From Campylobacterales bacterium (GTDB taxonomy: Bacteria; Campylobacterota; Campylobacteria; Campylobacterales; QNZT01): a stretch of 46,222 nucleotides of DNA. Positions 2,288-17,565 of this stretch are shown in pieces (the stretch's first letter is position 1; every line of letters begins with the position of its first letter). Position numbers and translations under genes: made by a program. The stretch covers positions 1 to 46,222 of the forward strand of contig JAMOMC010000137.1 in NCBI GenBank assembly GCA_027068765.1, written 5' to 3'. Below the pieces are notes generated by a model. That model made no database searches. It was not told where the DNA came from and worked only from the letters and a program-made list of their open reading frames with translations.

Positions 2288-2989
2288 TTAAGGGAGTAGC
2301 GTATTATACCATGATTTAAAATAGCCTTTAATTTTTTTTATCCAAGATGAGATATTATCACACCAGCTATCACAAAATTTATTATCAACAATAGGCTCAA
2401 TTACCTCTGTTTTCTTTTTATCTAAATCCTCTTTTATTAAGTGTAAATTCATTGGTAATTCGCAATGCTTATCAAATTCACAAGCAGCCTCAATTCCTAT
2501 CTTGGCAATTTCTGATGCACTGTGTGTATCGTATGCTTGCTCCATGGCTCCAAGAGCAAAATTTCCACCACTACCATTTGCCCAAAATTTAGAGTAATCT
2601 GCAATATATCTATCAGAACTTACTCCAAAAATACCACTACTATTTGCGATCAAAAGAGTTACTTGTGATGATTCAACCCTTTGTGCTCCATTGTGTGGAG
2701 TCAAATAGTGTTCATTTTTTAATATTTTATGTATTTTAAGCATCGATCTATATATATTATCAACACCATGCAAGGATAATTCATTGCTATTACTTTTTAA
2801 AGATTGAAGAAACATCTGTTTCGCCATACTAGCACCAACAGAACCAATCCAACTATCTTTATATTTTACTATTTTGGAGCTATTAGATTTGTGTGTAGAG
2901 TTTAAGCCAATATATCCATACATAGTCGTTAGGGTATCAGCAGCAATTACAATCTCTTGGTCTTTTTTCACTACAATTACTACTGACAT
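2288..2989 (-). CDS. Proteasome-like Ntn hydrolase, Ser nucleophile (paralog B, C-terminally extended)
   Basis: After removal of Met1 the protein starts SVVIVVKKDQEIVIAADTLTT, the N-terminal strand of proteasome beta/HslV proteins, with Ser1 in place of Thr1 and Asp17 at the canonical position. A lysine in SSKIVKY (or the preceding HK) fits catalytic Lys33. GSGGNFALGAM matches the conserved Ser/Gly loop of HslV, and an Asp in AACEFDKHC fits Asp166. Mature-type N-termini without propeptide are typical of HslV, Anbu and BPH. Compared with paralog A upstream it has an extra C-terminal tail of about 40 residues with two cysteines (FCDSWC) and an amphipathic end. It overlaps paralog A by 10 bases, with its AAGGAG ribosome site inside that gene. 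No unfoldase ATPase is adjacent. Likely a self-compartmentalising peptidase; the exact family is unresolved. Confidence 0.7.
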   Translation of the reverse strand: MSVVIVVKKDQEIVIAADTLTTMYGYIGLNSTHKSNSSKIVKYKDSWIGSVGASMAKQMFLQSLKSNSNELSLHGVDNIYRSMLKIHKILKNEHYLTPHNGAQRVESSQVTLLIANSSGIFGVSSDRYIADYSKFWANGSGGNFALGAMEQAYDTHSASEIAKIGIEAACEFDKHCELPMNLHLIKEDLDKKKTEVIEPIVDNKFCDSWCDNISSWIKKIKGYFKSWYNTLLP

Positions 2990-3561
2990 ATTTTCTCCTT
3001 AATCATCTGTATTTGTATTGGCAAACCACAACCTTCATCAAAATTACAAGCTGTTTGAACACCAATTTTAGCTGTTTTTAGTGCATCATATTTATCATAC
3101 ACATGATGCATTGCTCCAAGAGCAAATACTCCACCATCTCCAATTGCCCAAAATTTTGAAAATTCCTCTATATTTTTGTCTTCACCTACACCATAAATGC
3201 CACTATTATTTGCAATCAACAACTGCATATTTATAGACTCTACTGTTTGATTTGTAACTTTTTTTTGCTTAGGATCTAAATAGTACTTCTTTTTTAATAC
3301 CTTATGTAGTTTTAACAAAGATGTATAGATGTTGTCGATACCATCAAAAGAGAACTCTTGTTTGCCATTTTCTAATGCATGAAGAAGCATTTGTGTCGAC
3401 ATGTTGTCATTTGCACAACCAATCCAGTTGTCTTGATATTTTATAAATTTTTCACTATTAGTTTTATATTGTGAATTTATAATAAGTGAACCTCGATTTG
3501 TTAATGAATCAGAAGCAATAACAATCTCTTTATCTTTTTTTACAACCACTACAACTGACAC
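2980..3561 (-). CDS. Proteasome-like Ntn hydrolase, Ser nucleophile (paralog A)
   Basis: This 193-residue protein starts at a GTG with AAGGG seven bases upstream. It is a paralog of the following gene: SVVVVVKKDKEIVIASDSLT puts Ser1 and Asp17 in register, SEKFIKY supplies the Lys33 candidate, and CNFDEGCGLP keeps the Asp166 candidate. In the loop before the C-terminal helices it has GDGGVFALGAM, where paralog B and HslV have GSGG. The Ser129-equivalent is therefore Asp here, so this subunit may be less active or structural. Both genes share a promoter with an extended -10 at 3659-3667. The overlap and size suggest a co-translated two-subunit complex. Confidence 0.7.
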   Translation of the reverse strand: MSVVVVVKKDKEIVIASDSLTNRGSLIINSQYKTNSEKFIKYQDNWIGCANDNMSTQMLLHALENGKQEFSFDGIDNIYTSLLKLHKVLKKKYYLDPKQKKVTNQTVESINMQLLIANNSGIYGVGEDKNIEEFSKFWAIGDGGVFALGAMHHVYDKYDALKTAKIGVQTACNFDEGCGLPIQIQMIKEKICQ

Positions 3562-3778: not shown

Positions 3779-4264
3779 TCAAACAGACTTATTCTCCATT
3801 TTCAACAAGAACCTTTTATCATCCAACCCACTAGCAAAACCAGTCAATTTTCCGCTCTTGCCGATAACTCTATGACATGGAACTATAATCGAAATAAGGT
3901 TTAGTCCATTGGCTCGTCCGATTGCTCTAACTGCTTTTGGATTACCGATAGCTTTGGCTTGTTCAGAGTAACTTCTTGTCTCTCCAAAGGGAATTTTTAA
4001 AAGTGCCTTCCAAGCTGAAACTTCAAAGTTTGTTCCTTCAAAATATATTGGTAGTTCAAAAACTCTTCTTTTTTGTGCAAAATACTCATCTAACTGCTCT
4101 TTAGTTTGCTCTAAAATAGGGTGTTGTTTTTCTATCATACTATCTAATCTGTTTTTGACTTTATCCCAATTGCCCTTAAGTGCTAAAGCTCTAAGATTTT
4201 TTCCGTCTGTCGCTATATGGATAGCTCCAACTGGTGAATTTATCGTTTGATAATAAAGACTCAT
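3779..4264 (-). CDS. ogt: Methylated-DNA--protein-cysteine S-methyltransferase
   Basis: Suicide repair enzyme that transfers the methyl group from O6-methylguanine (and O4-methylthymine) to its own cysteine. The active-site motif PCHRVIG puts the acceptor Cys at residue 130. IPFGETRSYSEQAKAIGNPKAVRAIGRANG forms the conserved DNA-binding helix-turn-helix and Asn hinge. I use the ATG at 4264 rather than the longer ORF start at 4318, because it forms an ATGA overlap with the alkA stop and gives a normal N-terminus (MSLYYQTINSPVG). It is 161 residues, the usual length for Ogt. Translationally coupled to alkA, making a compact alkylation-repair operon. Confidence 0.93.
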   Translation of the reverse strand: MSLYYQTINSPVGAIHIATDGKNLRALALKGNWDKVKNRLDSMIEKQHPILEQTKEQLDEYFAQKRRVFELPIYFEGTNFEVSAWKALLKIPFGETRSYSEQAKAIGNPKAVRAIGRANGLNLISIIVPCHRVIGKSGKLTGFASGLDDKRFLLKMENKSV

Positions 4265-5019
4265 GCTAATCCTTTGTTCCAAATATAGTGCGTCAAATAA
4301 GCACGATTTGACATCCATAGTTTTTCATCTACTAAATTCTCTTTGATTGCTTTTTGGATAAAAAGATCATTTTTAGCAAAAGCATCTCTATCTTTAAAAC
4401 ATCGCATCATAATCATCTCGCTTGTCCAAGGTCCAATACCTTTGATGCAGAGCAATCTTTCCCTAGCCTTGCTAAAATCATCTTCTAAAAATATTTTATC
4501 ATGATAACTTGTAAGAGCTAAAGATCTTATCGCAGATGCTTTTGTTTTGGTGATACCTAGAGTTTCAAGTGGTGCATCTATAAGTTTAGTAGGAGGAGGA
4601 AAATGATAAATTTCATCTTTTAAGGGTCTACCAAACTCTTTTATAAGTTGTGCTAGTTTTTTAGTTGCACCAACTACTGAGATTAGTTGTCCAAGTATGA
4701 TAGATACTGCCACTTCAAATGGATCATAACAGCCAATTACTCTAACTCCTGTTGGTTTTGGTAGAGTTTTTGGATTGTGGATTGTGTCAAAAAGGTGTTT
4801 GATTTTTTCTAAATCATCCACTTGACACAAAACAGACAAAGCATCATCAAACTCACTCATCATAACTTTTATAACTCTGTAACCATCATCTGCTGGAACA
4901 TATCGAAGATAACAATCCTCACTAACTTTTTCAATTCCAAAAGCTTCATGTCTTTTTAAAAATGCTAAAACGGTTTTAAAATCATATGGTTTGTGGATGG
5001 AAATTTTAAACTCTTTCAC
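4261..5019 (-). CDS. alkA: DNA-3-methyladenine glycosylase II (AlkA-like)
   Basis: HhH-GPD family glycosylase that excises alkylated purines in base excision repair. An AlkA N-terminal-like domain covers about residues 1-85. The helix-hairpin-helix CIKGIGPWTSEMIMMRC is near 191-207 and the catalytic Asp in DAFAKNDLF is near 218. There is no C-terminal 4Fe-4S cysteine loop, which separates it from Nth/MutY. The start is a GTG whose bases overlap the TGA stop of an upstream remnant reading frame (GTGA), and it is coupled downstream to ogt. Confidence 0.88.
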   Translation of the reverse strand: MKEFKISIHKPYDFKTVLAFLKRHEAFGIEKVSEDCYLRYVPADDGYRVIKVMMSEFDDALSVLCQVDDLEKIKHLFDTIHNPKTLPKPTGVRVIGCYDPFEVAVSIILGQLISVVGATKKLAQLIKEFGRPLKDEIYHFPPPTKLIDAPLETLGITKTKASAIRSLALTSYHDKIFLEDDFSKARERLLCIKGIGPWTSEMIMMRCFKDRDAFAKNDLFIQKAIKENLVDEKLWMSNRAYLTHYIWNKGLA

Positions 5020-12704: not shown

Positions 12705-12774
12705 ATAGGGTGTTCATTTTTCTAAGATTATGCCGATGTTACTAGTAATAGTACCAAATAAAGGATTTACTCTT

Positions 12775-15700
12775 ATGAAATTTAGCAAAAATATATTTTT
12801 AATTATCTCCGTCTGCTTTTTTACAATCTCTTCATTGCAAGCTTCGCCTTGTGATACAAATCAAGAGATAACACTTGGTACAACTGCTTCAAATGCTGAG
12901 TTAGGAAATCAAAGAGTAAATAATGCAACTGGAGCTTTATATTATAAAATAGAGATAAAAGATGCAGGAAGACTCTCAATTTGGACTATGAGGGATAGTG
13001 TGGAGCCAGACAATAGAGTCAATACAAAAGGTTATCTTTTAGATAGTAGTTGTAATGATATGGGTTTTACAGAAAACATTAAAAATACATCTCCAAGATA
13101 TTTTGATTTTTATGAAGTTCTTAATCTTGGCACTTATTACTTAAAAGTTGAAAATAGTTCAAGTCTTGATGATGAAAATACCAATTTTAGAAATGGTCTA
13201 TTTGAGATACGAAACTATTTTATAAAGACAAAAGATACACCTAGTATTGTTTTAGATAAGTATACAGACTCATCTGTAAGATCTGGAGAAGATTTTAGAT
13301 ATAAGCTTTCACTTTACAATGATAGTTCATTTGTTAATACAGACATAGTTATAACAGATACTCTTGATTCAAGGTTAGTGTTACAGACAGATTGGAATAA
13401 GACTCCTGGTGATTGGGATTGTACAAATGTTGGAAATGATATAACTTGTAAATATAAACATGATTTACAAGCAAACAATTATGCAAGCAGACTTGAAATA
13501 GGTGTTATTGCACCAACTGTAACAAGTGTGATTATGATAGATAATAAAGCTGAAGTTACAGCAAAATCAGGAACTACTGATATTGGAGATGATGATAGTT
13601 TTTCAGTAGATATTGACCCTGTGGTTATAAGTAAATCTGATATTAGTTTAAATATTTTAAGTGGTTATGATGAAGTTGAAGTTTTAGGAACTTACTACTA
13701 CAACATTGTTATTAATAAAACAGGAGATGAGAATATTACAGGAACTACTTTAGAGATAAACACAACAAGTGAGGCAGATTATGTCTATATAGATCATACT
13801 TATAGTTATGATTGGGTTTGTAGTAAAAATGCTAAACGCTTATCATGTCAGCTAACTCATGCTTTTGGTCAAGGCGGCCTACAAGAAGAGATAAAAATTA
13901 GAGTGCAAGCACCAGGTAATCCATCGGAAGTTAAAATAATAGCTAGAGTTTATTCAGACTATTTAGATGATCTTAATTTGACAAACAATAGTGCTAGCAA
14001 AACAACAACTATAAAAGAGACAGATATGTCTGCTCACAATCCTAGAGAGTTTACAAAAGTTCCATTTGCAGATGATGTAGTTGATATGAATATATTTGGT
14101 GATATTTTAACAATAGGAAATCAATCTATTTGTGAAAAAGATAATAAAGGAGATTGTCAAGAGCCAAGTGCAAGTGTAAATGATAAAATATATCAAAAGT
14201 ATGCAAATTTAGATACAAGTGGACTCTCTGCAATTTATAGCACTTCAACAAGTGCAACTTTAGATATCTCTCTCACAGATGAGATTATGTGGGCTGGACT
14301 TTACTGGATGGGGAGAGTTGATAAAGGGAAAGAGAGTTGGAAAGATTTACAAGATAAAGCATCTACTGTATATATAAGACATGATTCAAATAAGACGGCA
14401 TATCATAAATTAGATGCTCTAAGAAGTACACCAAGTTACGATAACAGTGGTACTAAAATCATGGTAGATAAGTACAATTTTATAAATACTACTAGCTATT
14501 TTAACTATCAAGGTGTAGCGGATGTTACTAAATATGTAAAAGATAATAGAGGTGGTAGATACTGGGTAGCAGATGTAACTTCAAGTGAAGGTTACAATAT
14601 AAGTGCAGGTTGGAGTTTAGTTGTTGTTGTGAGAGATACGAAATCAGCTCCAACAAGAGAGCTTAAAAATATTACACTTTATGATGGATATGAGGGTGTA
14701 TGGAAAACTCCAAATAATACAACTTCAGCTATCTATAAATCTTCTATTGAGCAGAATGTAGTAGGGTTTTTAACTCCTTCAACAGGAGCTATAACTTCAA
14801 AGCTTACATTTTTTGCATTTGAAGGTGATCTCTCTTTACCAGATTTTATAGAAGTTGATGGCAATAGACTTAAAAACAGTTTAAATAATGAAAAAGATGT
14901 TGTAAATGGAACAATTTCACAAGATGGAAAATTTGTTAATACAAGACTTCCAAATCTAAAAAACACTTCAGGAATTGATATAGATGAGTTTAATTTAGGT
15001 ACAACTGATGGTGGACCTGGTATCATTAAACATTCTCAAAAAGAAGCTAAGATTAAAATCGGCTCTTTAGGTCTTGCTTCAAATAATGGTGGAGGAGATC
15101 AATACTATCTAGGAATGTTCTCTTTTTCAACAAACTTAAATGATCCAGTTTGTTATATGCAGAATTTTAAAAACAGTTCATACACGAGTGATCTTAGTGA
15201 TAGTGGTTCATATATAGATGATGTTATTGGAATTGAAGTAGAGATTAGAAATAAAGAGACACAGACACTTTTTGATGTTCATAGTTATATAGAGATAGAT
15301 AAGATGTTTGAAGAGGTTAATGGAACATTTGAGTTAAAAAATGTTGGTGATGTTGGATTTAGTGAGTATAGTAATCTTTTTGAGTACTCTAAAGTACAAA
15401 GAGTTGATGTTAATTTGAGTGAAGTAAAAACTTCTATAGGCTCAAGTGCGAGTTCAAGCAAAGGTGGAGATTTAAAATATAAAGAGAATATCTTTATAAG
15501 ATTTAATGCAAAAATCAAAGGACAAAATGATGATAACACGACTAGAAATAGATTTAGTGTAAGTTATGTTCCAACACCTGATAAAAAGATAGAGATTTCA
15601 AGATGTGATGGAGAGGATCAGAAAATCCATATCTTGAAAAATAAGCCAAATGGTTTTGAGGTGACTCATAGAGGTGGCTTGCAAGATGGAGTTACAGATG

Positions 15701-17565
15701 GTATGAGTAATGGAGCTAAATCGAATGAAAATCATCTTTTTACTCAAGTTGTAAATCAAGGTTTTTATATTGATATAGTTGCACTTCAAGATGGAGTTGG
15801 CAAAGAAAATCTGGTACGAGATGCGAGTGAAAAGTATAGAGGTCTTGTCCAGCTTCAAGCAGTTGATGTAAATGCTAGTGGAACTTGTGAGAGTTTTGTA
15901 GGAGTTGGTCCTATAAGTTATATACCATTTGATGATAAAATAAGAGTTGAGACAAACTCTAGTGTTTTTTCAGTTGATAAAAATGCTTCATTTAGAGTTA
16001 AGTATCTAGTAGATAGATATAGAAATCATGTGGAGTGGGATAACATTGGAGATGATTTAGATAGCTTGCAAAAAATGGTAGAAAAAGCTAATGTAGATAG
16101 TGTCTGTAAAGAGATTTGTGAAAACACAACAGATGCAAAAACTTGTAGAGAGTGTGTTTTTGAAGATGTATCTAAAGGTGGCTTTAGTCAATCTTCATGT
16201 TCTTCTGATACATTTGCAATAAAGCCTGAAAAAATTGAGCTTAGTTTAAATGTTGCAACAAAACCAATAGGAGGAGCAAGGTATAACTTGACTCTTGACT
16301 CTCTTAGTGCAGGTTATGATCAAAACTTTTCTACTTCAAGTATTAATAGAGTAAAAGGTGAGATAACTTTAGCTAGTGAAAATTCTGAATGTGGAGAGGA
16401 TGATGGTTTTTATAGTGGAGATATAGCTTATTTGAGTGGTGTTGCAAATGTATCTAATTTCTCTTATAATAATGTTGGAAGAGTAATTGTAACTTATAGC
16501 GATAAAAGTTGGACAGACTATGAGCAAAATGCTAGTAGTAAAACTCTCAGTGATTGTGTAGTTGGAAGTAGTGATAATAGTTTTAATGCAGATAATAAAG
16601 TAGGTTGTGAAGTGAGTGGAGGTAGAACTTTTGATTTTACTCCTGCTGGGTTTACAAATACTTTAGTATTAGAAAATGGTATAGGCAATTTTAACTATAT
16701 GGCAAATGATAGTGAAGATATCTCAGCAAGGCTTAGACTAAATATCCAAGCATCTTTAGCAGGTGGATTAGGAGTTGCTACAAACTATAGTGGTGAGTGT
16801 TTTGCAAATGATGTTAATGTTGCATATACTTATAATGGAATAAGAACAGGTACAAGATATATCCAAGCAGGAGAGACAAATATAGAAAATGATTTTGATT
16901 TTGATAGAGCTAGTGATAGTTTTGCAAATGGAGTTTCTAATGTAAATGTATCTGTTAACTTTGGTCGAGATTCACAAGTACCTCAAGAGCCATATACAAT
17001 TTTTAGAGACGATTTTAATGTTACAGTTGCAGACAAGGTAGATGCATCTGTAACAGGATCAATGGTAGCAGATGCAGATCATGGTGTCTCTTTTTATTAT
17101 GGTAGGTTGAATGTTCCTGATATTGAGACATCTCTTCAAAATATCTATGTTAATTTCCAGTATGAGGTTTTTTGCCAAGGGTGTGATAGAGCTGACTTCC
17201 CTTTTGCAAATGGTCCAGAGAGTGCTGATAGTGTTTTTTGGTATGTAAATAATACAAATCACAATAACTTTGTTCAAGGAACTTTTACAAATGAGAATTC
17301 ACAAAATGGAATGCAATTTGCTAATGAGAGCTTTAGAGGGATGAATGTTCTGCTTGGAGCTGGAAATCGTGTTCCTCATAGTGATAGAATTACTTACAAT
17401 CCTTCTCCTTGGCTTGTTTTTGATGAATTTAGAGCAGGTGTTGTGAGTGATAGTTTTAATATCAGGATGTTTTCTCGTGGAAATTGGTCTGGAAAAGGGA
17501 AAATTGGTACAAGTGTTTTAGGGCAAGATATGTCAGAAGAGACTTCAAAAAAGATGGAGTGGTAA
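12775..17565 (+). CDS. Large secreted MshQ-like/DUF11-type surface protein
   Basis: I place the start at the ATG at 12775, which follows AAAGGA and yields a signal peptide (MKFSKNIFLIISVCFFTISSLQAS), giving 1596 residues. Domains in order: an N-terminal beta domain; two DUF11-like beta-sandwich repeats near 150-285 and 290-415 (each with FRYKLSLYNDSS- or YYYNIVINKTGD-type strands and a WxC motif); a central surface-protein region (EIMWAGLYWMGR near 502, GWSLVVVVRDTKS near 611); and a C-terminal part after a Cys-rich linker (CKEICENTTDAKTCRECVF near 1110), where DTFAIKPEKIEL and YNLTLDSLSAGYDQNF recall the DUF6701 region of MshQ. It sits immediately ahead of three prepilin genes. MshQ belongs to the MSHA pilus locus of Vibrio, so a pilus-associated adhesin is likely; DUF6701 assignment is tentative. 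Confidence 0.65.
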   Translation: MKFSKNIFLIISVCFFTISSLQASPCDTNQEITLGTTASNAELGNQRVNNATGALYYKIEIKDAGRLSIWTMRDSVEPDNRVNTKGYLLDSSCNDMGFTENIKNTSPRYFDFYEVLNLGTYYLKVENSSSLDDENTNFRNGLFEIRNYFIKTKDTPSIVLDKYTDSSVRSGEDFRYKLSLYNDSSFVNTDIVITDTLDSRLVLQTDWNKTPGDWDCTNVGNDITCKYKHDLQANNYASRLEIGVIAPTVTSVIMIDNKAEVTAKSGTTDIGDDDSFSVDIDPVVISKSDISLNILSGYDEVEVLGTYYYNIVINKTGDENITGTTLEINTTSEADYVYIDHTYSYDWVCSKNAKRLSCQLTHAFGQGGLQEEIKIRVQAPGNPSEVKIIARVYSDYLDDLNLTNNSASKTTTIKETDMSAHNPREFTKVPFADDVVDMNIFGDILTIGNQSICEKDNKGDCQEPSASVNDKIYQKYANLDTSGLSAIYSTSTSATLDISLTDEIMWAGLYWMGRVDKGKESWKDLQDKASTVYIRHDSNKTAYHKLDALRSTPSYDNSGTKIMVDKYNFINTTSYFNYQGVADVTKYVKDNRGGRYWVADVTSSEGYNISAGWSLVVVVRDTKSAPTRELKNITLYDGYEGVWKTPNNTTSAIYKSSIEQNVVGFLTPSTGAITSKLTFFAFEGDLSLPDFIEVDGNRLKNSLNNEKDVVNGTISQDGKFVNTRLPNLKNTSGIDIDEFNLGTTDGGPGIIKHSQKEAKIKIGSLGLASNNGGGDQYYLGMFSFSTNLNDPVCYMQNFKNSSYTSDLSDSGSYIDDVIGIEVEIRNKETQTLFDVHSYIEIDKMFEEVNGTFELKNVGDVGFSEYSNLFEYSKVQRVDVNLSEVKTSIGSSASSSKGGDLKYKENIFIRFNAKIKGQNDDNTTRNRFSVSYVPTPDKKIEISRCDGEDQKIHILKNKPNGFEVTHRGGLQDGVTDGMSNGAKSNENHLFTQVVNQGFYIDIVALQDGVGKENLVRDASEKYRGLVQLQAVDVNASGTCESFVGVGPISYIPFDDKIRVETNSSVFSVDKNASFRVKYLVDRYRNHVEWDNIGDDLDSLQKMVEKANVDSVCKEICENTTDAKTCRECVFEDVSKGGFSQSSCSSDTFAIKPEKIELSLNVATKPIGGARYNLTLDSLSAGYDQNFSTSSINRVKGEITLASENSECGEDDGFYSGDIAYLSGVANVSNFSYNNVGRVIVTYSDKSWTDYEQNASSKTLSDCVVGSSDNSFNADNKVGCEVSGGRTFDFTPAGFTNTLVLENGIGNFNYMANDSEDISARLRLNIQASLAGGLGVATNYSGECFANDVNVAYTYNGIRTGTRYIQAGETNIENDFDFDRASDSFANGVSNVNVSVNFGRDSQVPQEPYTIFRDDFNVTVADKVDASVTGSMVADADHGVSFYYGRLNVPDIETSLQNIYVNFQYEVFCQGCDRADFPFANGPESADSVFWYVNNTNHNNFVQGTFTNENSQNGMQFANESFRGMNVLLGAGNRVPHSDRITYNPSPWLVFDEFRAGVVSDSFNIRMFSRGNWSGKGKIGTSVLGQDMSEETSKKMEW

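Follow-up and report, generated by a model that had tools for sequence, protein, structure and literature searches.

The stretch of DNA analysed here, referred to as the window, comprises 46,222 nucleotides from a Campylobacterales bacterium. Two overlapping genes on its minus strand, here called A and B, encode homologues of the betaproteobacterial proteasome homologue (BPH), with the following layout.

2288..2989, minus strand: gene A, 233 codons with an ATG start; a Ser1-type BPH subunit in which every checked active-site residue is present.
2980..3561, minus strand: gene B, 193 codons with a GTG start; a BPH paralogue located upstream of A.
2980..2989, minus strand: the 10 bases shared by the end of B and the start of A.

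The initial annotation of this DNA described two adjacent paralogues overlapping by 10 bases, which we confirmed; the two products share 52% identity across 192 residues (E 4e-58). A Shine-Dalgarno-like AAGGAG for A falls within the final codons of B and, together with the overlap, suggests that B and A are translationally coupled. Alignment also verified that both proteins read Met-Ser-Val-Val, with Ser in the nucleophile position (Ser1) and with Asp17. Neither protein has a propeptide, as the start codon lies immediately before Ser1 and, in the case of A, the start is supported by the Shine-Dalgarno-like sequence. Given the Met-Ser start, one would expect methionine aminopeptidase to expose Ser1. 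A scan for promoters and terminators gave sites no commoner than in shuffled sequences.

With regard to the origin of the pair, the GC content of A and B equals that of their surroundings, and composition thus gives no sign of recent horizontal transfer. A plasmid origin was rejected, as only two weak plasmid matches were obtained, and so was a phage origin, since A had no match among phage records or, in a single-sequence search, among viral contigs, and the pair has no phage genes next to it. An alignment search of the viral contigs produced 14 weak matches, mostly at 23-32% identity, with one 29-residue segment at 66%. The family phrog_1040 matches both proteins at E about 1e-15, but ordinary BPHs match it equally well. 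PADLOC gave no match to a defence system for A or B.

A and B both belong to BPH, as is well supported by sequence, profile and predicted fold. A search of PDB sequences with A placed BPH on top (5ovu from Cupriavidus metallidurans, E 4e-36; 5ovs from Thiobacillus denitrificans, 8e-27), with HslV at 0.08. The profile comparison proposed with the initial annotation pointed the same way: with a BPH profile built from 43 BPHs from outside Campylobacterota, and containing no Campylobacterota copy, A scored 216 bits and B 197, while HslV from this genome reached 29. On curated models the pair scored weakly, with 18.7 and 13.0 bits for the Pfam Proteasome model (under the cut-off) and 25.5 and 17.5 bits for the NCBIfam HslV model (cut-off 157.75), and these scores, together with the lead of BPH in the PDB search, rule out membership in HslV, 20S or Anbu. 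The AlphaFold monomers (pLDDT 86 and pTM 0.76 for A; pLDDT 90 and pTM 0.88 for B) both contain the proteasome-like Ntn fold with helices H1-H4, and the top Foldseek matches of both are 5ovs, 5ovt and 5ovu, which bears out the fold that had been read from the sequence. AAH, PPH and the other group I proteasome homologues belong to the same superfamily group (PMC8665760), but BPH is a far better match than these or phrog_1040.

A and B resemble the solved BPHs (5ovs, 5ovt, 5ovu; PMC5777263) in fold, with A 36-39% identical to them, and also in the missing propeptide, the nucleophile directly after Met, Asp17 and Lys37, the position of a long pore loop and the absence of an unfoldase neighbour. 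No unfoldase gene was found in the neighbourhood of the pair, as the initial annotation had stated; the genome's own HslVU lies elsewhere, on contig C54, where HslU adjoins the real HslV. HslV, from which BPH probably descends according to published work, shares the Ntn fold and the GSGG motif with the pair, but the similarity is weak (25 bits versus 158), the pore loop is longer in A and B, and these have no adjacent HslU.

The initial annotation assumed that the known bacterial families normally use Thr1, which is incorrect, since all BPHs outside Betaproteobacteria are stated to be of the Ser1 type (PMC5777263). It also considered that its reading would fail if both proteins fell inside a well-described single-gene family, and both do fall within BPH, which is otherwise a single-gene family. 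Described BPHs are homo-tetradecameric double rings without a partner unfoldase (PMC5777263). Ser1 and the missing unfoldase are thus already published for BPH, and what differs is the pairing: two overlapping paralogues as opposed to one gene. The observation holds, and a known family accounts for most of it; the new part is the pairing of an active with an impaired subunit. A literature search, to which most subscription journals and preprints were out of reach, found no later papers on BPH paralogues.

Two further features distinguish A from the described BPHs.

2291..2419, minus strand: C-terminal extension of A, about residues 190-232, with a CDxWCDxxSxWI motif; present in A copies only.
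2675..2710, minus strand: pore-loop region of A, between helix H2 and strand S7, with a net charge of +1.

The C-terminal tail, which had been put at about 40 residues, extends A some 42 residues beyond the end of B. AlphaFold predicts an amphipathic helix at residues 204-230, and in the A copies this helix has a mean hydrophobic moment of 0.60-0.67, with a best window reached in at most 0.4% of shuffles. Because the C-termini point away from the ring (PMC8665760), the predicted helix could bind a partner or a membrane. As for the pore loop, the five intact Campylobacterota copies in the alignment all have a net charge between 0 and +2, compared with -2 to -5 for the remaining 43 BPHs; the acidic loop is thus missing from A, B and the other Campylobacterota copies aligned. 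Since the acidic loop was described for betaproteobacterial structures (PMC5777263), we regard the neutral or basic loop as a variant trait, which is no ground for excluding these proteins from BPH.

To compare the active sites, we used the numbering of the Thiobacillus BPH at positions 1, 17, 37, 50 and 139. The codons at which A and B differ are the following.

2834..2836, minus strand: Gly51 of A, equivalent to Gly50 of the Thiobacillus BPH, oxyanion hole.
3409..3411, minus strand: Asn50 of B; Gly in every other aligned BPH except the B of the sister species (Asp).
2570..2572, minus strand: Ser139 of A, within the GSGG motif.
3136..3138, minus strand: Asp141 of B, within the GDGG motif, where it replaces the Ser of GSG; Thr in the sister species.

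A, its orthologue and a single-copy relative from a Nitratifractor metagenome-assembled genome (MAG; L009) have Ser, Asp, Lys, Gly and Ser at the five positions, corresponding in A to the mature residues Ser1, Asp17, Lys38, Gly51 and Ser139. B has Ser, Asp, Lys, Asn and Asp (Ser1, Asp17, Lys37, Asn50, Asp141), and its orthologue in the sister species Ser, Asp, Lys, Asp and Thr. The annotated contrast between GSGG in one protein and GDGG in the other is therefore that between A and B. A matching Lys had also been proposed, and this holds for K38 of A and K37 of B, which align with Lys37 of Thiobacillus, but not for K33 of A. Among more than 80 aligned BPHs, Gly50 is absent from the two B copies only. 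Position 139 is Ser in every other aligned BPH apart from three with Thr, which keep Gly50 (the copy in L008 lacks the region). The near-invariant residues Q108, R126 and A167 (A numbering) are also altered in both B copies and not in A, whereas S124 is altered in both B copies and in the sister A as well.

In proteasomes the oxyanion-hole Gly is strictly conserved, and Ser129 has a proton-relay role in the protonation of the N-terminal amine (PMC4792962). With neither the oxyanion Gly nor the Ser that contacts the nucleophile left in place, B is probably catalytically weak or inactive although Ser1, Asp17 and Lys37 are kept. As judged from these residues it is a divergent paralogue within BPH and not a canonical catalytic BPH. 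It may nevertheless retain some activity, given its Ser1, Asp17 and Lys37, and the NH that makes the oxyanion hole belongs to the backbone, so that an Asn or Asp might supply it too. The substitutions in B might accordingly retune catalysis and not abolish it, A and B then forming two separate active homo-oligomeric rings that differ in substrate preference or conditions. This would agree with the homo-tetradecameric assembly of every BPH whose structure has been characterised (PMC5777263), with the residues that B has kept, and with the three BPHs that tolerate Thr at 139 next to an intact Gly50. We nevertheless consider separate rings unlikely, since Gly50 is otherwise invariant in the aligned set, B departs at Q108, R126 and A167 in both copies (and at S124, as does the sister A), and the overlap of the genes favours matched expression of one complex.

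Next we surveyed how widely the pair occurs. Scanning 85,462 species genomes turned up 398 relatives; the 80 best of these were examined as loci spanning about 5 kb on each side, contig permitting. Two BPH genes were found together in one of these 80 loci (L007), belonging to a Campylobacterales MAG (genome G020) of the same genus as the window. The pair there has the same B-A order and a 13-base overlap, so that order and overlap are kept in otherwise different surroundings: the window has AlkA and O6-methylguanine methyltransferase genes next to the pair and L007 has other genes, the O6-methylguanine methyltransferase of G020 lying on a separate contig. In the window these neighbours (3779-5019) are an AlkA-like glycosylase and an O6-methylguanine-DNA methyltransferase gene that overlap by 58 bases, forming an alkylation-repair pair.

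The intact pair is carried by these two genomes only. A third genome of the genus (G017) has A alone, with an in-frame deletion of 210 bases, and no B was found in that genome. The ends of the deletion correspond to two copies of TAAATTTTG present in gene A of the window. As a result of the deletion, this A-type gene (L008:5001-5477) lacks the GSGG motif and the H3-H4 region. Of the genus's six genomes, the other three lack both genes, as do almost all of about 400 genomes sampled from the order and about 400 from the phylum; one other match in the order (G029, E 1e-4) is HslV-like. On the question, raised in the initial annotation, of whether A and B always co-occur, they do so in the window and in L007; G017 has only a broken A and the Nitratifractor MAG a single copy. 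As three genomes of the six lack the pair and a fourth has it in broken form, it is dispensable.

In the tree, the A copies of the two species group as one clade and the B copies as another, and a species-specific duplication, with the A and B of the window as sisters, was rejected (p-AU 5e-62). The duplication therefore predates the split of the two species. It may even be older than the genus, with one copy lost later, because the tree position of the Nitratifractor gene differs between two runs; AU tests reject neither a split before nor a split after the A/B duplication. Between the two species, dN/dS was 0.159 for A and 0.166 for B by the NG86 method; the Biopython maximum-likelihood estimate for B (0.62) came with an implausible dS and was not relied on. 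Both genes are thus under purifying selection, and B is not decaying. This weighs against the view that B is a functionless duplicate heading for loss beside an A that is an ordinary homomeric Ser-type BPH. Such a fate could account for the active-site residues gone from B and for the third genome, where A is broken and B missing, but the dN/dS of B (about 0.16) is the same as that of A, its frame is intact in two species and its AlphaFold model is confident (pLDDT 90). We therefore find loss of B quite improbable.

We favour a hetero-oligomeric BPH ring in which A would be the catalytic and B an impaired structural or gating subunit, a reading based on sequence to which we assign an even chance of being correct. 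A and B would be co-translated as subunits of a BPH-type self-compartmentalising Ntn hydrolase, methionine removal would expose Ser1, and the two would assemble as a mixed heptameric double ring or as stacked unlike rings. Ser1 of A, activated by Lys38 and Asp17, would cleave unfolded or peptide substrates independently of ATP. B, weakly active or inactive, would build the ring, cut the number of active sites and shape the pore and chamber, while the C-terminal helix of A would point outward and dock to B, a partner or a membrane surface. Rings that mix active and inactive paralogous subunits occur in eukaryotic 20S beta rings, ClpP/ClpR and ClpP1P2, and the role of B would be like that of the inactive subunits of the eukaryotic proteasome beta rings or of ClpR. 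The analogy would be a functional one: A and B are two subunits only, and the ClpP fold is unrelated to theirs. The gene-level traits expected of an active/inactive ring are found, in two genomes only: paralogues kept together, catalytic residues lost by B alone, and purifying selection on both. The two-subunit idea is thus strengthened by retention of the pair in a second species, by the restriction of active-site loss to B and by the selection on both genes.

The mixed ring is less secure in that even protease activity of the BPH family is unproven, since purified BPHs are inert towards standard substrates (PMC5777263). By analogy with connectase, a proteasome homologue that acts as a ligase (PMC8665760), the pair might instead derive from BPH as an Ntn enzyme that is not proteolytic, or as a device that binds peptides or ligates proteins, a use with which that inertness and the replacement of the BPH-typical acidic pore loop would agree. 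However, A has a complete catalytic set as well as helices H1 and H2, which are missing in connectase, and epoxomicin reacts with BPH by binding its nucleophile productively (PMC5777263), so that we judge a non-proteolytic use quite improbable.

More tentatively, and with more doubt than confidence on our part, the mixed ring could be the first bacterial compartment of the HslV/BPH lineage with an intra-ring division of labour, combining a Ser-type catalytic subunit that bears an outward amphipathic helix with a silenced partner, and arising independently of the eukaryotic proteasome and ClpP/ClpR. If so, active and inactive subunits would have been divided independently in the proteasome lineage outside eukaryotes. 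BPH structures have been solved but no activity, substrate or partner is known, and a natural pair with an impaired subunit would offer a direct handle on how the BPH ring works.

Some minor observations were made elsewhere in the window. Region 849-1936 contains a CopG-antitoxin-like ORF without a recognised adjacent toxin; it also encodes a helix-turn-helix protein, of which a sister genome has numerous distant copies. Region 12730-17565 encodes a protein of 1611 residues whose only match is a weak one to DUF11; pilin-like genes come after it.

The nucleophile has changed at least five times on the BPH tree, and such Ser/Thr switches offer natural comparisons when asking what makes Thr the preferred residue of proteasomes. 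Ser1 occurs in two betaproteobacterial MAGs that group within a Thr1 clade, and Thr1 in a Leucothrix MAG (L045:5004-5576, L053:5004-5576 and L010:5004-5576), although the MAG labels could be wrong. The published rule of Thr1 inside and Ser1 outside Betaproteobacteria is not strict. Finally, a Ser1-type BPH is present in a MAG labelled Haloplasmataceae (Mycoplasmatota; L026:5004-5570), far beyond the phyla covered in the BPH paper.
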